Part shown: in pieces, positions 13,067-35,325 of the stretch
How the letters are laid out: every line of letters begins with the position of its first letter
Position numbering within the stretch: position 1 is the stretch's first letter
From: a virus
Strand: one strand, 5' to 3'
DNA length: 35,325 nucleotides
IMG/VR virus record: IMGVR_UViG_3300028283_000020
Coordinates: 1 to 35,325 of that record
Program-made: the position numbers and the translations under genes
Notes under the pieces: model-generated
Told to the model about the DNA's origin: nothing
The model's database searches: none
Seen by the model: the letters and a program-made list of their open reading frames with translations, nothing else

Positions 13067-14065
13067 ATGGCTAACGAAGTAAAAACTTTCAACGGTTTAG
13101 TTATAGATAATATAAAGACTTTCAATGGGATCCTGGCAACTAGTATTAAAACTATAAATGGCTTATCATTTATTCAAGGTCCTACTTATTCAGCCTACTT
13201 TTCAGGAGGGCTCTCTAGTGGTGGCAAGGTCACCACAACAGACGGTCTTACATTCTCCACCGACACAACAGCACAAGTCACTAAAGGTGCACTATCACAA
13301 GCTAGGCATGCTTTAGCAGGAGCTAACTCTTCTACCTTAGCCTACTTTTCAGGAGGGAGCGCTAGTGGTGGCAAGGTCACCACAACAGACGGTCTTACAT
13401 TCTCCACCGACACAACAGCACAAGTGACTAAAGGTGCACTATCACAAGCTAGGTTTATTTTAACAGGAGCTAACTCCTCTACCTTAGCCTACTTTTCAGG
13501 AGGGCACACTGGTGATTATGTCACCACAACAGACGGTCTTACATTCTCCACCGACACAACAACACAAGTGACTAAAGGTGCACTATCACAAGCTAGGTAT
13601 GGTTTAGCAGGGGCTAACTCTTCTACCTTAGCCTACTTTTCAGGAGGGAGCACTAGTGCCAGGGTTACCACAACAGACGGTCTTACATTCTCCACCGACA
13701 CAACAACACAAGTGACTAAAGGTGCACTATCACAAGCTAGGGGTTATTTAGCAGGAGCTAATTCTTCTACCTTAGCCTACTTTTCAGGAGGGAGCACTGG
13801 TGACAGTGTCACAACAACAGACGGCCTTACATTCTCCACAGACACAACAGCACAAGTGACTAAAGGTGCGCTATCACAAGCTAGGTATGGTTTAGCAGGA
13901 GCTAACTCTTCTACCTTAGCCTACTTTTCAGGAGGGAACACTGGTGCCGATGTCACCACAACAGACGGTCTTACATTCTCCACCGACACAACAACACAAG
14001 TGACTAAAGGTGCACTATCACAAGATAGGGGTTATTTAGCAGGAGCTCAATCAGGTTCAGTATAA
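13067..14065 (+). CDS. Six-repeat beta-propeller-like fibre/adhesin
   Basis: 332 residues. The N-terminus carries three short motifs (VKTFNGL, IKTFNGI, IKTINGL), a tail-attachment pattern. Then come six near-identical units of 48-49 residues, starting AYFSGG, continuing VTTTDGLTFSTDTT and KGALSQAR, and ending AGANSSTL. Variation is confined to two patches: five or six residues after AYFSGG, and two residues after SQAR. Four-stranded units of this size suggest a kelch-like propeller with six blades, the variable patches lying on loops. A receptor-binding role is likely. The DNA repeats are at 13193-14062. Confidence 0.65.
   Translation: MANEVKTFNGLVIDNIKTFNGILATSIKTINGLSFIQGPTYSAYFSGGLSSGGKVTTTDGLTFSTDTTAQVTKGALSQARHALAGANSSTLAYFSGGSASGGKVTTTDGLTFSTDTTAQVTKGALSQARFILTGANSSTLAYFSGGHTGDYVTTTDGLTFSTDTTTQVTKGALSQARYGLAGANSSTLAYFSGGSTSARVTTTDGLTFSTDTTTQVTKGALSQARGYLAGANSSTLAYFSGGSTGDSVTTTDGLTFSTDTTAQVTKGALSQARYGLAGANSSTLAYFSGGNTGADVTTTDGLTFSTDTTTQVTKGALSQDRGYLAGAQSGSV
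13193..14062 (+). repeat. Tandem DNA repeat, six units of 144-147 bp
   Basis: Units begin near 13193, 13340, 13487, 13631, 13775 and 13919, so the period is 147, 147, 144, 144, 144. Long stretches are identical between units, for example around the TCTTACATTCTCCACCGACA block. High identity implies recent duplication or gene conversion, and the array could expand or contract in frame. Confidence 0.9.
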
Positions 14066-27831: not shown

Positions 27832-28095
27832 CTATTTAAATCTAACACAACGAACATAGTTATTGTCAGACTTGACGTTGAAGCCCAAAGTGCCGTCCGA
27901 GAAGTTCACATAATACGCGCCGTTCGTGCACTGAGGGTAAGTGGTGGAGGACCAATAGTAGCTGGGAACAAATCCATCCACTTTATCATCATCAGCCTCT
28001 ACCAACTCTCTCTTAGTGTTTATAGCCTCATCATCCAATCCTCTCAATTCTTTTAAAATCTCTAACTCTCTAATTAAAATATCTTTTTTAGTCAT
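27832..28095 (-). CDS. DGR-type variable lectin-fold protein A (short)
   Basis: 87 residues from ATG 28095, whose leader TTATAAAAATATG matches its paralogues. N-terminal helix (MTKKDILIRELEILKELRGL), short linker, then the C-terminal lectin-fold segment YYWSSTTYP...RCVR of DUF1566/FISUMP type. The 39 codons 27960-27844 align without gaps to those of proteins B and D. Nearly all differences are at first and second codon bases of NNC/NNT codons, the mark of DGR variable regions. It lacks the EWGES...GWRRP segment of its paralogues, so it is a shortened form. Its ligand is unknown; the lectin end normally binds ligand. Confidence 0.8.
   Translation of the reverse strand: MTKKDILIRELEILKELRGLDDEAINTKRELVEADDDKVDGFVPSYYWSSTTYPQCTNGAYYVNFSDGTLGFNVKSDNNYVRCVRFK
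27844..27960 (-). repeat. DGR variable region VR-A
   Basis: 39 codons from TAC (27960-27958) to GTT (27846-27844). Invariant frame in all three copies: TGG, TCC, ACC, ACT, ACG, GCG, TTC TCG, GGC ACT TTG, AAG, CGT TGT GTT. Variable codons here include TGC, GGC, TTC, GTC and GAC, where the siblings have AAC, AGC, GAC and so on. Confidence 0.75.
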
Positions 28096-28127
28096 ATTTT
28101 TATAAGTCAATAACTAAATAATTATTA

Positions 28128-28502
28128 CTAGCGAACACAACGACCATAGATAATGCTAAACTTGTCGAGGTTGCGCAAAGTGCCGTCCGAGAAGTTCACA
28201 TAAAACGCGCTGTTCGTGCTCAGAGGGTAAGTGGTGGAGGACCAATAGTAATCTTCTTTAAATCCATCAACTCCATCTAAATAAGCGTTAAATAATTCTA
28301 TAGCAGTTGGTCGTCTCCACCCATCTCCTTTACTCTCGCACCACCTACCAAATTCTTCAAAATTCATCCTTTCGTTACTACTCTCCCCCCATTCAGGCTC
28401 TTTCTTAGTGTCTAGGGTTTTAGTTACTTCCTCAAGGCTTCCATATCCTAAAAGTTCGTTTATTATTTCTAATTTTTTTTCTAATAATTGCTGTCTTGTC
28501 AT
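28128..28502 (-). CDS. DGR-type variable lectin-fold protein B
   Basis: 124 residues. Helical N-terminus (MTRQQLLEKKLEIINELLGY), then the lectin-fold domain: EPEWGESSNERMNFEEFGRW, CESKGDGWRRPTAIELFNAY, LDGVDGFKEDYYWSSTT and the end GRCVR. The W-x-x-P and YYWSST...RC-V-R elements are those of DUF1566/FISUMP domains, a fold used by DGR target proteins. The last 39 codons are the hypervariable part. No signal peptide, so it acts in the cytoplasm or on the virion. It follows the NinB-like gene in the early operon with a 16-base gap. Confidence 0.82.
   Translation of the reverse strand: MTRQQLLEKKLEIINELLGYGSLEEVTKTLDTKKEPEWGESSNERMNFEEFGRWCESKGDGWRRPTAIELFNAYLDGVDGFKEDYYWSSTTYPLSTNSAFYVNFSDGTLRNLDKFSIIYGRCVR
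28134..28250 (-). repeat. DGR variable region VR-B
   Basis: 39 codons aligned to VR-A and VR-D. Distinctive codons are CTG, AGC, CGC, CTC, GAC, TTT, AGC, ATT and ATC at sites where siblings differ. Third bases are almost constant across copies. It is followed by CGC TAG, shared with VR-D. Confidence 0.75.
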
Positions 28503-28518
28503 ATAGTTATTAATTAAA

Positions 28519-28911
28519 TTATTCTGTTAAATAAATAGCACTCTCGTCTGGTATGGGCACTCCGCATTCCGCACAAATAGCCTCTAGGTAGTCTTTAAAT
28601 TCTTTAGTCGATAAAGTGGTGGTCGTTGCAGGTATTTTTATCTCCTTGCCCATTACAGCGATAAATACAGGTGGCAAATGGACTCTCTTAAAATATTCAT
28701 TTAAATTATTTTCAGAATTTCCTGTTTCTTGACTTATAATCCTCAAATATCCCCAATAAAGTCTATTTTGTTTATTGCTTCTATTTTTTTCCTCTTTCTT
28801 CACGATCATCTCGCAATTACCGTTCAAGGTAAAAAGATAGTCATTAAAAGTCTTGTCATCTAAATCTTTAATAATTCCATTCTCTATTTTAATTTTGAAT
28901 ATCGGAACCAT
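28519..28911 (-). CDS. ninB: NinB-like recombination protein
   Basis: 130 residues from ATG 28911 (MVPIFKIKIEN); a start five codons earlier has no better leader. The central RSNKQNRLYWGYLRIISQET and the closing PATTTTLSTKEFKDYLEAI, CAECGVPIPD are the conserved blocks of NinB/Orf family proteins, which bind single-stranded DNA and assist recombination. It overlaps the RusA gene by 23 bases, and RusA plus NinB pairs occur in many phages. No nuclease motif. Confidence 0.75.
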   Translation of the reverse strand: MVPIFKIKIENGIIKDLDDKTFNDYLFTLNGNCEMIVKKEEKNRSNKQNRLYWGYLRIISQETGNSENNLNEYFKRVHLPPVFIAVMGKEIKIPATTTTLSTKEFKDYLEAICAECGVPIPDESAIYLTE

Positions 28912-29230
28912 ATTTCTTAAATTCAAATTTTATAAATTCATTTCCCTTTTTTACAATTTTTTTCTCAACTATAATCTTATAAATCATCTTGTCGTTAAAG
29001 CAATACTTTTTTTGGCAAACATCTGAAAAAATTTTAATTGGGTTGTCAGTATCTGCATTCTTAGAAGACAAGCCAAACACTAAATTAAGTTCAAGTTTTC
29101 CGTCTGGCACTTCTAAATTTGGCAATAAATAAAATAATTCTTTCTCGTAATCTTCGTATTCTCTAGTTTTAAACCGTCTCCCCCTAAAGGCTTGATTAAC
29201 AGATAGAGGCTTGATATAAAGTGTGTGCAC
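28889..29230 (-). CDS. rusA: RusA-type Holliday junction resolvase
   Basis: 113 residues beginning with GTG 29230-29228. KPLSVNQAFRGRRFKTREY is the family opening, and NADTDNPIKIFSDVC gives D60-x-D62-N and K66, with D80 (CFND) as the third acid; RusA enzymes use such a triad with a lysine. It cuts four-way junctions, resolving recombination or replication intermediates before packaging. It overlaps NinB by 23 bases. The AT-rich leader has no SD. Confidence 0.88.
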   Translation of the reverse strand: MHTLYIKPLSVNQAFRGRRFKTREYEDYEKELFYLLPNLEVPDGKLELNLVFGLSSKNADTDNPIKIFSDVCQKKYCFNDKMIYKIIVEKKIVKKGNEFIKFEFKKYGSDIQN

Positions 29231-29287
29231 AATATTTTATTTATAATGTGCATAGCTTATTCCCTCTGCACAATAATAGTTATAGAG
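29231..29287 (-). other. Short gap with TGTGCA/TGCACA inverted repeat
   Basis: On either strand TGTGCA and TGCACA (about 29237-29267) can form a 6-bp hairpin just upstream of the GTG of the resolvase gene, which itself lies in a third TGTGCA. Possibly translational control; weak evidence. Confidence 0.3.
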
Positions 29288-29755
29288 TTAATCCTTGAGG
29301 CAACGCGCAGAAAACCCATTCGCCCTGTAATTGTAATTGGCAGGATCCACACTCCCTGAATCAAAGAACAAGAGATAGGCATACGTGCCATTTGGACTTG
29401 ACGACCAATAGTAGCCGTACGAACCTTGACCGTTCAACGAAGCATTAAGGTGATTGCGGAATCCTATAGCTGGCATAGTCTTAAAATAATCATCTTTTTT
29501 CATTAACTCATACATTAAATCTTTGTCTGCAACCCTTTTATTTCTTTTCTTCGTTTCTCTCATTAGTGCGTCAAAGGTAAATAGTTGTTTACCCTTAACT
29601 TTGCCCTCTCTAAACTCCCAAATATCTTTCTCTTTATTTTCAAGCATAAAAGTCTCACTAATAATAACCTTATTCCACCCCTTGGAGTTTATTCTAAAAT
29701 TTTTATCCTCTAGTTCTGGTGTTTTAATTTCCTTTTTACATTTATCGCAAACCAT
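29288..29755 (-). CDS. Zinc-knuckle plus FISUMP-type lectin-fold protein C
   Basis: 155 residues. N-terminus MVCDKCKKEIKTP is half a zinc ribbon. A central region (FREGKVKGKQLFTFDALMRE, ELMKKDDYFKTMPAIGFRN) leads to GQGSYGYYWSSSPNGTYAYL, FFDSGSVDPANYNYRANGF and SARCLKD. This C-terminus is the FISUMP/DUF1566 end with the repeated N/Y-rich run typical of DGR variable regions, but of a different lineage from proteins A, B and D. The codons there (TAC, GGC, CTC, GAT, AGT, AAT) fit mutated AAC/AAT, though no second copy exists here to prove it. It overlaps the HNH gene by 14 bases. Confidence 0.7.
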   Translation of the reverse strand: MVCDKCKKEIKTPELEDKNFRINSKGWNKVIISETFMLENKEKDIWEFREGKVKGKQLFTFDALMRETKKRNKRVADKDLMYELMKKDDYFKTMPAIGFRNHLNASLNGQGSYGYYWSSSPNGTYAYLLFFDSGSVDPANYNYRANGFSARCLKD

Positions 29756-29990
29756 ATTTTTTTAGTAATTTACAATTGAATAAAGCTTCCAATCCTCTAT
29801 CTTCAACTAGCTCATTTCTTAACGACTTGTCGCCGTGTAGTTTCTCGTGGCAACGGCGACAAGCCGTTATAAGATTAAGAGGATTATTTAATTCTTTGTG
29901 ATTAGGCTGTTCACTTTTATACACAATGTGGTGCAACTCTAGGCAAAATCTTGATATATGGCAGTATTCGCAATATGTTTTTTTAAGCAT
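29742..29990 (-). CDS. HNH endonuclease
   Basis: 82 residues from ATG 29990 (MLKKTYCEYC); a longer frame would overlap the SSB gene. C7-x2-C10 and C44-x2-C47 hold the structural zinc. H20-H21 (LELHH) is the catalytic start of the motif, with N39 (PLNLIT) and H48 (RRCHEKLH) completing H-N-H. Length matches the minimal HNH domain. It may nick DNA for packaging or recombination, or act against competitor DNA. It sits between SSB and lectin gene C. Confidence 0.88.
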   Translation of the reverse strand: MLKKTYCEYCHISRFCLELHHIVYKSEQPNHKELNNPLNLITACRRCHEKLHGDKSLRNELVEDRGLEALFNCKLLKKYGLR

Positions 29991-29994
29991 TAGT

Positions 29995-30525
29995 TTAAAA
30001 AGTAATAACTTCTTCTTCCATACTGTTAAACGGATCACCTCCGTCATATAAAGCGTTAAGGTTTATATTTAATGAATTGTATTCTTCAACTATTGAATCA
30101 TCTAGTTTAGAGTGTGGGCTTGGCATTACAGAGTATTCAGTACTTAGTTTTTCCCCTTTTTTAACAATAGTAATGTCGTAATTTTTAGGATTACCCCATT
30201 TTACATTATCAACTAAACTTTTTATTGCATTTTGTATTCCGGTCTGTGTTAATTCTAAAATTTGTATTGAATTTTCTTTTTCGTTATATACTACAAACGC
30301 CCAAAAATGCTTTATTTTAGATTGATTACCGTTTTCATCTGATCGGAGGTCTCTCGGTGTATTTTTAGGCATTTCTTTTAATCTGACAGGCTTATTTTCA
30401 ATATTCCAATATTCATAGCCGATTATAGCGGATGATAATACTCTAAAAGTATTTTCACCCTCTTTAAGTTTCATATAATTACTTTTAGTTGGTATTTTAT
30501 ATTCTACTGGTAAAAAGTTTTCCAT
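29995..30525 (-). CDS. Single-stranded DNA-binding protein-like
   Basis: 176 residues. The opening YMKLKEGENTFRVLSSAIIG, then KHFWAFVVYNEKENSIQILEL and KNYDITIVKKGEKLSTEYSV, give beta strands rich in aromatics as in OB folds of phage ssDNA-binding proteins. The C-terminus is acidic and ends GDPFNSMEEEVITF, the SSB-type acidic tip with terminal Phe that recruits partners. Neighbours (exonuclease, HNH, RusA, NinB) are consistent. Leader TTATAAAAATATG, no SD. Confidence 0.75.
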   Translation of the reverse strand: MENFLPVEYKIPTKSNYMKLKEGENTFRVLSSAIIGYEYWNIENKPVRLKEMPKNTPRDLRSDENGNQSKIKHFWAFVVYNEKENSIQILELTQTGIQNAIKSLVDNVKWGNPKNYDITIVKKGEKLSTEYSVMPSPHSKLDDSIVEEYNSLNINLNALYDGGDPFNSMEEEVITF

Positions 30526-30543
30526 ATTTTTATAAGTTAATAA

Positions 30544-31134
30544 TTAAATTAAAATTGGCTTAAGAGTTAAAAACAGCTCTTCTGTCATTGATAAGTCCTC
30601 TAAATTATGTTTGATTATTTCTTCGTCTGTCGCTGTATCAAAGTTAATATCTTGTTTAGTTTTTCCGATGTATATCTCACAAAATTCATCTAAACTTCTA
30701 AACTTTCCTTTTTCAACCATTCTATCTTGAATATCAATATGTGCCTGTTCATATCTGTTAGTTAGTTGTTTGAGCCACCCATAAGGTAAGTTGAGATTAT
30801 TTTTTATGCCCCAGCGGAGGATAAGTGGTATATCAAAATGCAAACCGTTGTAAGTAACTATTGTAAATCCGGTTATATCGTTTAAAGCCGTTTCAATCTC
30901 TTTTTTATCCGTTAAACATCTTGCCTCTCCTCCAACTTCTTTAATTCCTAGACAAAATAAATCCGCATAATCAATATCAACTCTTTTAGCCTTTTCATTG
31001 TTTTTACTTTCCATATACGCTTTAATCTTTTCAGGATCTTTGTAATTACTTGGTGCTTCAATCGGATGTCGTCTATCGTAAATTTCATTAAGCCCTGTCT
31101 TTGTTTCGCAATCAATAACGAAAGATTTATGCAT
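30544..31134 (-). CDS. DnaQ/PolB-like 3'-5' exonuclease
   Basis: 196 residues. Exo I: FVIDCETKTG with D8 and E10. Exo II: IVTYNGLHFDIPLIL with N96 and D101. Exo III: HNLEDLSMTEEL with H176 and D180. These are the metal-binding residues of DEDD nucleases, here arranged like the predicted exonucleases related to the PolB proofreading domain. No polymerase domain is attached and none is present in the phage, so it probably acts in recombination, repair or host DNA breakdown. It ends 18 bases before the SSB-like gene. Confidence 0.82.
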   Translation of the reverse strand: MHKSFVIDCETKTGLNEIYDRRHPIEAPSNYKDPEKIKAYMESKNNEKAKRVDIDYADLFCLGIKEVGGEARCLTDKKEIETALNDITGFTIVTYNGLHFDIPLILRWGIKNNLNLPYGWLKQLTNRYEQAHIDIQDRMVEKGKFRSLDEFCEIYIGKTKQDINFDTATDEEIIKHNLEDLSMTEELFLTLKPILI

Positions 31135-31175
31135 AAATATTTTTGTTTATTAAGTTAATAATTAAATAACTATTG

Positions 31176-31763
31176 CTAGCGAACACAACGACCATAGTAA
31201 TTGACAGACTTGCCGTTGTTGTCCAAAGTGCCGTTCGAGAAGTTCAAAAAATACGCACTGTCCGTAAACTGAGGGTGAGTGGTGGATGACCAAAAGTAAT
31301 CTCTTTTAAATCCATCAACTCCTTTAAATCCATCAACTCCATCTAAATAAGCGATAAATAATTCTATAATAGTTGGTCGTCTCCACCCATCCCCTTTACT
31401 CTCGCACCACTTACCAAATTCTTCCCAATTCATCCTTTCTTTACTACTCTCCCCCCATTCAGGCTCTTTCCTAGTGTCTATGGTTTTATGTCCGATTTTA
31501 TTTATCATTTTATTAACAGCCTCTTCCAAATCCATCTGTTCTATGATACTCTCCCCCCATTCAAGCGCTCTCTTAGTGTCTATGGTTTTATGTCCGATTT
31601 TATTTATCATTTTATTAACAGCCTCTATTGCTAAAAATAATCCTTTGTGGCAATCTCCATTGTTAGTGTTTACACATTGCGATATAGCTATTACAGCCTC
31701 GTGTAAAAGTATCTTTTTGTGCATTTTTTCAATCTCTTCATTAAATTCTTTGTTGTTTTCCAT
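31176..31763 (-). CDS. DGR-type variable lectin-fold protein D (long, internally duplicated)
   Basis: 195 residues. Helical N-terminus, then a 34-residue segment AVNKMINKIGHKTIDT...EWGES repeated twice, then NWEEFGKWCESKGDGWRRPT, a YLDGVDGFKGVDGFK mini-duplication, and the variable end DYFWSSTTHP to GRCVR. It is the longest member of the family, about 70 residues longer than B because of these duplications. The last 39 codons (31298-31182) show DGR-type variation against A and B. The leader is TTATAAAAATATG. It lies between the exonuclease gene and the truncated paralogue. Confidence 0.82.
   Translation of the reverse strand: MENNKEFNEEIEKMHKKILLHEAVIAISQCVNTNNGDCHKGLFLAIEAVNKMINKIGHKTIDTKRALEWGESIIEQMDLEEAVNKMINKIGHKTIDTRKEPEWGESSKERMNWEEFGKWCESKGDGWRRPTIIELFIAYLDGVDGFKGVDGFKRDYFWSSTTHPQFTDSAYFLNFSNGTLDNNGKSVNYYGRCVR
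31182..31298 (-). repeat. DGR variable region VR-D
   Basis: 39 codons aligned to VR-A and VR-B. It keeps AAC or GAC at several sites where the others are changed, and changes TAT to TTT twice and GTG to TTG. Two of the three third-base differences in the whole alignment are TTT and AGT here. Confidence 0.75.
31305..31340 (-). repeat. 18-bp tandem duplication in protein D
   Basis: TTTAAATCCATCAACTCC occurs at 31305-31322 and again at 31323-31340, adding the six residues GVDGFK in frame just before the variable region. The paralogue B has one copy. Confidence 0.9.
31472..31626 (-). repeat. 102-bp period duplication in protein D
   Basis: 53 bases at 31472-31524 are identical to 31574-31626. 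The surrounding CTCCCCCCATTCA blocks also align, so a 102-bp (34-codon) unit was duplicated in frame. It carries the AVNKMINKIGHKTIDT peptide and the EWGES motif. Confidence 0.9.
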
Positions 31764-31781: not shown

Positions 31782-32012
31782 TTAATACTCTTCCAAAACA
31801 GAAGCGTTACGACGTGGAAGTCTCCACCCCTCGCCCTTGCTTTTGCACCATTCTATAGACTCTTCAAACGTCATCTTTTTATCACTTATTTCTCCCCATT
31901 CCAAATCCAAACGACTTCCAAGCTCTACATTTTTTAAGAGTTCTAACTGTTCGTTTGAAATATCTTGTTTAGTCATTTTTTTATTTTCTTGACCATATTT
32001 AAATATTTCCAT
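31782..32012 (-). pseudogene. Truncated lectin-family paralogue E (no variable region)
   Basis: 76 residues: MTKQDISNEQLELLKNVELG, then LEWGEISDKKMTFEESIEWC and KSKGEGWRLPRR, which match the first part of proteins B and D. The protein then ends NASVLEEY and stops where the family continues with TxIELFxAYL. The lectin core and variable region are absent. Either recombination removed them or this is a functional short form. The leader TTATAAAAATATG is intact, so it is probably still translated. Confidence 0.6.
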
Positions 32013-32612: not shown

Positions 32613-33818
32613 TTATAAATATTTCCCATTCCAATAGAGGTTTTCTATTATTTTTTTTTTAATTGATAAAGTTGATCGATGATTGAAAGTGTTAACTTTA
32701 ATAAATTTATTAGGCATATTATATTCTGATATAAAAACTGGATTTTCATTTTCTAAACACCATTTATAAAATTTTTCATAATCTATTGTTTTTTGATAAC
32801 TGGCAGTGTCTTTATATGGGGGATCGCAATATATCACACCTTTCTCTTTTGTTTCAACTTCTTCATAAGAAAGGTTGAAAATTTTTAATCTCTCTAATCT
32901 CGCTAATCTCTCTAATTGCTGTAATTGCTGTAAGCTCTCTAATTGCTGTAATCTCTCTAATTGCTCTAATCTCTCTAATTGCTGTAATTGATATAATTTA
33001 TATTTATTATCTATACTAAATAAATTTTCTATCCATTCGGGTATATTTTTAATTTTTGAATTAGTTTTTATTTTATTCCAGTATTCAATAGTAGGCATTG
33101 CTGGTTGTGATTTATTAGAAATATAATGAATACCCATTTGCGTATTACAAATATTATTTATCTCATTCGCAGTTATTCCAGTCTTATGCAACCAATCCAT
33201 AAAAATTAAAACAGTATCTTTAGTATATTTTTTTTCTAAAATATTACAGTATTTTTCATATTCTTTTTCATTTCCGTTTATTAGTCTTTCAAATTCTTTG
33301 GTTGCATATTGATTTAAAAAGAGTCTTCTTCCTGTTTTATTTTCTAAATTAATATTTGGAATACCTTTTATTTGTTTTTTATTTATACAAAAATAATGTC
33401 CATCTCTTTTTATGTTCTCTATATTTTTAGAGAATAAATAATTTCTCTGATTGTTTCCAAAACTCCAACAGCACTTAATAAGCCCTCCATACCAATCATT
33501 GTTATTTTTATGTTTTTCAAATTCTTCTCTAGTTATCCATTTATTCGGTAGTTTTTTACCTGATATAATATATTTTAACAAATTGCATATTCCAGTATTA
33601 AATTCATTGTAAAAAACATTATGCCCAGCCAATAAACCAGCTATACTAACAGATCCTCCCCCACCAAATAAATCATAAAAATTTTCAAAGTCTCCAACTG
33701 TTTTATAAATAGAATTTAATATTTTAGTCGCCAGTTTTCTTTTTCCCCCCATATATGGAATAGACGGAACTATAAAATCTTTTATTGTAGTTTCACCAAA
33801 TAAATTTTTAGTTCTCAT
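32613..33818 (-). CDS. dam: D12-class adenine-N6 DNA methyltransferase (Dam-like)
   Basis: 401 residues. SAM-binding blocks IPYMGGKRKLATKI and FYDLFGGGGSVSIAG (motif I at 49-56), then the catalytic motif IV CDPPYKDT (DPPY 331-334), in the order of D12/Dam enzymes. It is longer than Dam (about 280) by a central insertion, part of which is a run of Leu-Gln-Gln/Leu-Glu-Arg triplets at about 276-310. Likely protects phage DNA from host restriction or controls replication. Closing segment FISEYNMPNKFI is also conserved. An 11-base overlap with the upstream mini-gene. Confidence 0.9.
   Translation of the reverse strand: MRTKNLFGETTIKDFIVPSIPYMGGKRKLATKILNSIYKTVGDFENFYDLFGGGGSVSIAGLLAGHNVFYNEFNTGICNLLKYIISGKKLPNKWITREEFEKHKNNNDWYGGLIKCCWSFGNNQRNYLFSKNIENIKRDGHYFCINKKQIKGIPNINLENKTGRRLFLNQYATKEFERLINGNEKEYEKYCNILEKKYTKDTVLIFMDWLHKTGITANEINNICNTQMGIHYISNKSQPAMPTIEYWNKIKTNSKIKNIPEWIENLFSIDNKYKLYQLQQLERLEQLERLQQLESLQQLQQLERLARLERLKIFNLSYEEVETKEKGVIYCDPPYKDTASYQKTIDYEKFYKWCLENENPVFISEYNMPNKFIKVNTFNHRSTLSIKKKIIENLYWNGKYL
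32889..32993 (-). repeat. 9-bp minisatellite in the methylase gene
   Basis: About eleven 9-bp units (CTAATTGCT, GTAATTGCT, CTAATCTCT and close variants) encode alternating LQQ, LER and LEQ triplets. Length change by one unit keeps the frame. Confidence 0.85.
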
Positions 33819-35046: not shown

Positions 35047-35325
35047 TGTGTTTGACTCCCCTCTTCTTTTTTGTAAAAAGCAAGAAGTTCGCCTAGTTTA
35101 ATTTTTAGTTGATAAGGATTAGTAATCGTTGGAGCATATTTTTTGCCTTGTATTGCAATCGCCGCCTTTGCGGTGTTGATTGCTTTCTCATAGCCAAATT
35201 TCTTGATGATTTCTTCTGCTGAACTTCTATTGGTTTTATTTCCGAAACTTATAAGGGGATTGATAGTTTTAAATTCGTTTATAAGATTTACAATTTCTTG
35301 ATTTTTAGATTTTTCCGCATCCGAT
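35037..35325 (-). CDS. DnaD-like replication initiator (3' part; continues from 1-593)
   Basis: The C-terminal end of the gene described at 1-593. Reading leftwards, 35325-35179 repeats codons already present at 147-1, then ATC AAC ACC GCA AAG continues to GSQTQWV and TGA (35039-35037). The frame is open over the whole stretch, which confirms the circular join. Confidence 0.75.
   Translation of the reverse strand, partial: SDAEKSKNQEIVNLINEFKTINPLISFGNKTNRSSAEEIIKKFGYEKAINTAKAAIAIQGKKYAPTITNPYQLKIKLGELLAFYKKEEGSQTQWV
35179..35325. repeat. Terminal overlap of circular contig, right copy
   Basis: Copy of 1-147 with T at 35199 instead of C at 21, a synonymous change in the replication gene. 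Remove one copy before computing genome length. Confidence 0.9.

Follow-up and report, generated by a model that had tools for sequence, protein, structure and literature searches.

The 3′-ends of three lectin-like genes in a complete phage genome are probably variable regions (VRs) that have been diversified in trans, now or recently, by a diversity-generating retroelement (DGR) encoded outside the phage. The sequence analysed is IMG/VR record IMGVR_UViG_3300028283_000020, positions 1-35,325, and 'the window' below means this whole stretch of 35,325 nucleotides. The three genes, referred to as a, b and c, and their VRs were delimited as follows:

27832-28095, minus strand: gene a, an open reading frame (ORF) of 87 aa whose Lcl_C/DUF1566 domain is reduced to its second half (PF07603, E = 5e-10, profile positions 52-117)
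27844-27960, minus strand: VR of gene a, 39 codons (ungapped alignment, third-base comparison, GC content at third codon positions, GC3)
28128-28502, minus strand: gene b, a 124-aa Lcl_C protein with a predicted C-type-lectin fold (ORF, Pfam, structure prediction)
28134-28250, minus strand: VR of gene b, 39 codons (ungapped alignment, third-base comparison, GC3)
31176-31763, minus strand: gene c, a 195-aa Lcl_C protein and paralogue of b (ORF, Pfam)
31182-31298, minus strand: VR of gene c, 39 codons, carrying every third-base difference (ungapped alignment)

The VRs, 117 nt each, align without a gap and comprise 89 shared scaffold columns and 28 variable ones. Eleven of the variable columns fall at first, 14 at second and three at third codon positions (probability of three or fewer third positions among 28, assuming uniformity, 0.006), and A is present in at least one copy at 19 of the 25 variable first- and second-position sites. 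Recomputation thus returned the same counts as an initial annotation of this DNA, which had been made from the letters alone. That annotation described the VRs as the last 39 codons of their genes; the coordinates stand, but the gene end does not, since one codon (b and c) or three codons (a) are left between VR and stop. The scaffold that it called invariant is shared far beyond chance, because the next best match in the genome, on either strand, retains only 41 of the 89 columns. Letters other than A at the variable sites are T (20), G (18) and C (5), and 11 of 19 variable codons in a and b end in C, compared with 13% of codons genome-wide.

Homogeneity of the scaffold is limited to the VRs. 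The VRs of a and b have no third-base difference in 39 codons, whereas 9 of the 16 codons immediately before them have one (p = 1.8e-6), and homology between the two genes begins abruptly at the VR start. For b and c, differences at first and second positions are concentrated within the VR (21/78 against 9/114 upstream, p = 5e-4), while third positions show no excess of differences in the VR over upstream. A history of pure gene conversion was rejected for a and b, because this process cannot create 16 differences that all avoid third positions. The codon composition of the VRs is foreign to the phage: their GC3 values of 0.67, 0.67 and 0.59 compare with a phage gene mean of 0.27, and no other 39-codon window of coding sequence in the genome reaches this level. 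The change is a step at the first VR codon, from 0.37 to 0.77 in a, from 0.17 to 0.77 in b and from 0.10 to 0.62 in c. A GC3 rise was present in all confirmed DGR targets tested; at three Lcl_C loci (L013, L019 and L030) it was little or none.

Correspondence with template adenines was measured via seven related templates as a proxy. The VR alignment, used to scan GTDB genomes, retrieved 63 loci with the shared scaffold, about a dozen of which have a DGR-type reverse transcriptase (RT) motif pair, a template repeat (TR)/VR pair or both within 10 kb (examples are L009, L011, L021, L031, L047 and L050). At several of these loci nearly all differences between TR and VR lie on template adenines, and the templates read like NYWSSTTNANNPNNAWNVNFNNGNVNNNNKNNNNYVRCV, near the window scaffold and with Asn codons at most variable places. 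Of the 28 columns that vary in the window, 21 have an adenine in most of the seven real templates, compared with 21 of the 89 invariant ones (p = 1.5e-6), an overlap that is partly confounded because adenines and variable sites could mark one binding surface. The substitution spectrum of related DGRs (A>T 94, A>G 97, A>C 37) is like that of the window variable sites, and 61-81% of the pairwise differences among window VRs involve A, against 60-70% for three VR pairs of related DGRs that align well. The DGR reading proposed in the initial annotation is supported by proxy-template adenines, VR-limited homogeneity, the GC3 step, the A-to-N spectrum and the predicted fold.

The same confounding is what favours an origin with no DGR at all, in which lectin paralogues have been under strong diversifying selection on their binding surface: the template adenines of real DGRs sit on that same surface, and phage DUF1566 genes do occur in contigs that yielded no RT. 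We regard this origin as very improbable. Selection of this kind leaves unexplained the identical third bases of a and b beside strongly diverged flanks, the excess of NNC codons, the GC3 step at the VR edge and the DGR-like spectrum.

The C-type-lectin fold assigned to the three proteins from their letters is supported by both Pfam and structure prediction. Genes a and c match Lcl_C (PF07603, formerly DUF1566) with 40.0 and 39.7 bits, above the curated cut-off of 34.9, and gene b, with 32.3 bits, falls slightly below it. An AlphaFold2 model of the gene b product, built with 27 homologues, has a mean predicted local distance difference test score (pLDDT) of 87. Foldseek returned the C-terminal domain of Legionella Lcl (8q4e, E = 2.4e-4) as the best solved match, followed by many C-type lectins, and VIA-align gave Z 10.7 for the Bdellovibrio Bd2740 domain (8oks) and Z 10.4 for the Lcl domain. 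The combination of a C-type-lectin fold with a C-terminal VR is that of a DGR target, and DUF1566 is the commonest Pfam domain reported in such targets (PMC6642488). Mtd, TvpA and other known DGR variable-protein structures were not among the fold matches listed, which is uninformative alone.

The DGR itself is missing from the phage. The record is labelled linear in IMG/VR, a label that misses a terminal direct overlap of 147 bp:

1-147, no strand: left copy of the terminal overlap, 146/147 identical to 35179-35325
35179-35325, no strand: right copy of the terminal overlap, with an ORF that runs on across the join

Since the ends match at 146 of 147 positions and the ORFs cut at both record ends fuse over the overlap into one unbroken protein, the phage genome is complete, with a length of ~35,178 bp, and is circular or terminally redundant. 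No RVT_1 match was found anywhere in the record. It also holds no TR-like pair, and the match of 41/89 given above is the best that the whole genome offers to the scaffold besides the three VRs. Because the genome is complete, contig truncation is unlikely to account for the lack of RT and template, and an RT cut off in this way was rejected as an explanation. The locus is classed as a group of DGR-type targets lacking a DGR, and not as a DGR itself, because RT and template were both tested for and neither was found. The evidence therefore supports genes that are targets of a trans-acting DGR, now or recently, but does not support an active DGR within this phage, which has no RT, template or usual recipient homing motif. 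We found no report of a phage of this RT-less kind in the open-access literature searched, the coverage of which was limited.

Truncation is seen within the lectin genes themselves, in gene a and in a further relative:

31782-32012, minus strand: gene e, a truncated relative with the first domain half (EWGE...WCKSKGEGWRLP) and without a VR (ORF)

DNA identity of gene e to b and c is about 70% across 87 bp. Together with a complete genome that has neither RT nor TR and with the missing homing motif, these truncated genes could be taken for traces of an ancestral cis DGR, the RT and template of which were recently lost, leaving VRs that are now frozen. Treponema denticola strains that have targets and no RT provide a precedent (PMC4891356). 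Such a relic is nevertheless improbable in our judgement: no DGR remnant was found in the genome, and the VRs still differ from phage composition in GC3 and at third positions, which leaves room only for a recent loss. Moreover, the only near relatives by terminase (L002 and L003) are both fragments, with no RT match and no Lcl_C match.

Several observations weigh against diversification in trans. A DNA search of about 1,530 genomes from four phyla, Elusimicrobiota (L010), Nitrospirota (L011), Campylobacterota (L016) and Desulfobacterota (L014), revealed no near-identical template; the best matches beyond short chance stretches were at 70-75%. The recipient motif of related DGRs for initiation of mutagenic homing (IMH), which reads GGACAG in the VR where the TR has GGAAAG or GGAGAG, is absent after all three VRs. 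No stable hairpin or cruciform follows the VRs (flank z-scores from -0.55 to 1.16), a structure that is not strictly needed in BPP-1 (PMC12875486). The three third-base changes occur only in the VR of gene c, and they are not clearly of the template-adenine type. Finally, gene a is without half of its lectin domain. The missing IMH would mean either a donor with another IMH, or VR entry by recombination, or homing that has stopped.

Entry by recombination could have occurred with the DGR never homing into the phage, if VRs of host DGR targets, once diversified, had recombined homologously into the phage Lcl_C genes. The NinB-like, RusA-like and exonuclease genes of the phage are of recombination type, and both the foreign composition of the VRs and the absent recipient motif would be expected from such a capture. 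We consider it unlikely. Three independent captures with edges at nearly the same codon would be required, and the abrupt start of a-b homology at the VR fits a cDNA, though recombination limited by homology could produce it too.

Under the preferred reading, diversification in trans, the three VRs would derive from one template that is rich in AAC/AAT codons and lies outside the phage genome. An error-prone DGR RT from the host chromosome, a prophage or a co-infecting element would copy this template and randomise its adenines, and in each of the phage Lcl_C genes the resulting cDNA would take the place of the homologous end (mutagenic retrohoming). The process might take place during infection or lysogeny and may still be acting. 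The phage would contribute recipient genes only, encoding small C-type-lectin-fold proteins in its early/recombination region, and each infection could bring new binding surfaces. For loci within a single bacterial genome, DGR action in trans is documented (PMC10907252), and a plasmid-borne DGR retargets a DGR-deleted phage in an engineered laboratory system (PMC3240598).

Known systems each share part of this arrangement. Bacterial DGRs with DUF1566/Lcl_C targets (for example L011, L021, L031 and L047; Stenotrophomonas SKA14, PMC6642488) have the same domain as the window genes, the common scaffold YWSSTT..A..V.F..G......K....Y.RCV and, likewise, several targets per template; their variable sites also fall on template adenines, which for the window was seen by proxy. 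They differ in that RT and TR lie close to the targets and a recipient motif of GGACAG type is present, whereas the window has none of the three and is a phage genome. In Bordetella phage BPP-1 the diversified mtd belongs, as here, to a phage and combines a C-type-lectin fold with variability of the adenine type at the C-terminus; there, however, RT, Avd and TR are encoded in cis and the tail fibre is diversified, while the window has no machinery and its targets lie in the early/recombination region. Targets distant from or without RT and TR are also known from Thiohalocapsa PB-PSB1 (PMC10907252) and T. denticola (PMC4891356), but these belong to the DGR's own chromosome or to a strain of the same species, whereas those of the window are on a phage genome that is complete and separate. 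With two targets each, the tentaclin phages (PMC10743442) resemble the window phage in having more than one; unlike it, they carry the DGR cassette and diversify receptor-binding proteins.

The placement of the targets amid replication genes and outside the fibre, pointed out in the initial annotation, agrees with the same-strand neighbours of the lectin genes, which are NinB-, RusA-, exonuclease- and HNH-like. Judged by eye, none of a, b and c has a secretion-type N-terminus, and the proteins are apparently cytoplasmic. Gene a most likely starts with the ATG at 28095, and its N-terminus is short and helical-looking. In gene c the N-terminal part is duplicated internally, and an 18-bp tandem duplication directly precedes the VR. 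One more lectin-like gene was found in the region:

29288-29755, minus strand: fourth lectin-like gene, FISUMP/Lcl_C-like (YYWSSS...RCLKD) (Pfam, GC3)

Its GC3 is 0.50 C-terminally and 0.34 upstream, and it is possibly the target of a different template.

A search of viral contigs for the exact scaffold pattern gave no match, and protein searches of viral contigs (with gene b and the window exonuclease) and of phages (with genes b and c) revealed no relative. The terminase is at best 39% identical to named phages and the major capsid protein 31% to cyanophages, and host assignment failed. The phage genome has no tRNAs. Shine-Dalgarno motifs are nearly absent upstream of most window genes, and several minus-strand genes have a common TTAACTTATAAAAATATG-like leader; together these features point to a host with unusual translation starts. 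Next to structural genes, 13067-14065 encodes a protein of near-identical tandem repeats (YFSGG...TTTDGLTFSTDTT...VTKGALSQAR). The gene at 32613-33818 encodes a D12-class adenine methyltransferase with a low-complexity insert of leucine/glutamine-rich repeats (LQQLERL...).

Other viral contigs (L004, which is IMGVR_UViG_3300026546_000010, L005, L006, L007, L084 and L086) contain DUF1566 genes with a GC3 rise at the VR edge, and no RT was found in any of the six. L004 has five Lcl_C domains in tandem. The like GC3 step in these contigs suggests a wider class of RT-less viral recipients. The GC3 step at the VR edge provides a simple, template-free way to spot orphan DGR targets.

Known phage DGRs mostly diversify tail proteins and have their machinery in cis. 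The early-region location of the window genes suggests that the partner of the variable proteins is intracellular. More tentatively, the phage may parasitise a host-encoded DGR and keep, as its recipients, several genes for cytoplasmic lectins, with intracellular binding proteins being diversified in each infection; such binders could, for instance, counter host defences or rival phages. If this is true, one genome can borrow the targeted hypermutation of another, and hypermutation in phages may reach intracellular proteins as well as fibres.
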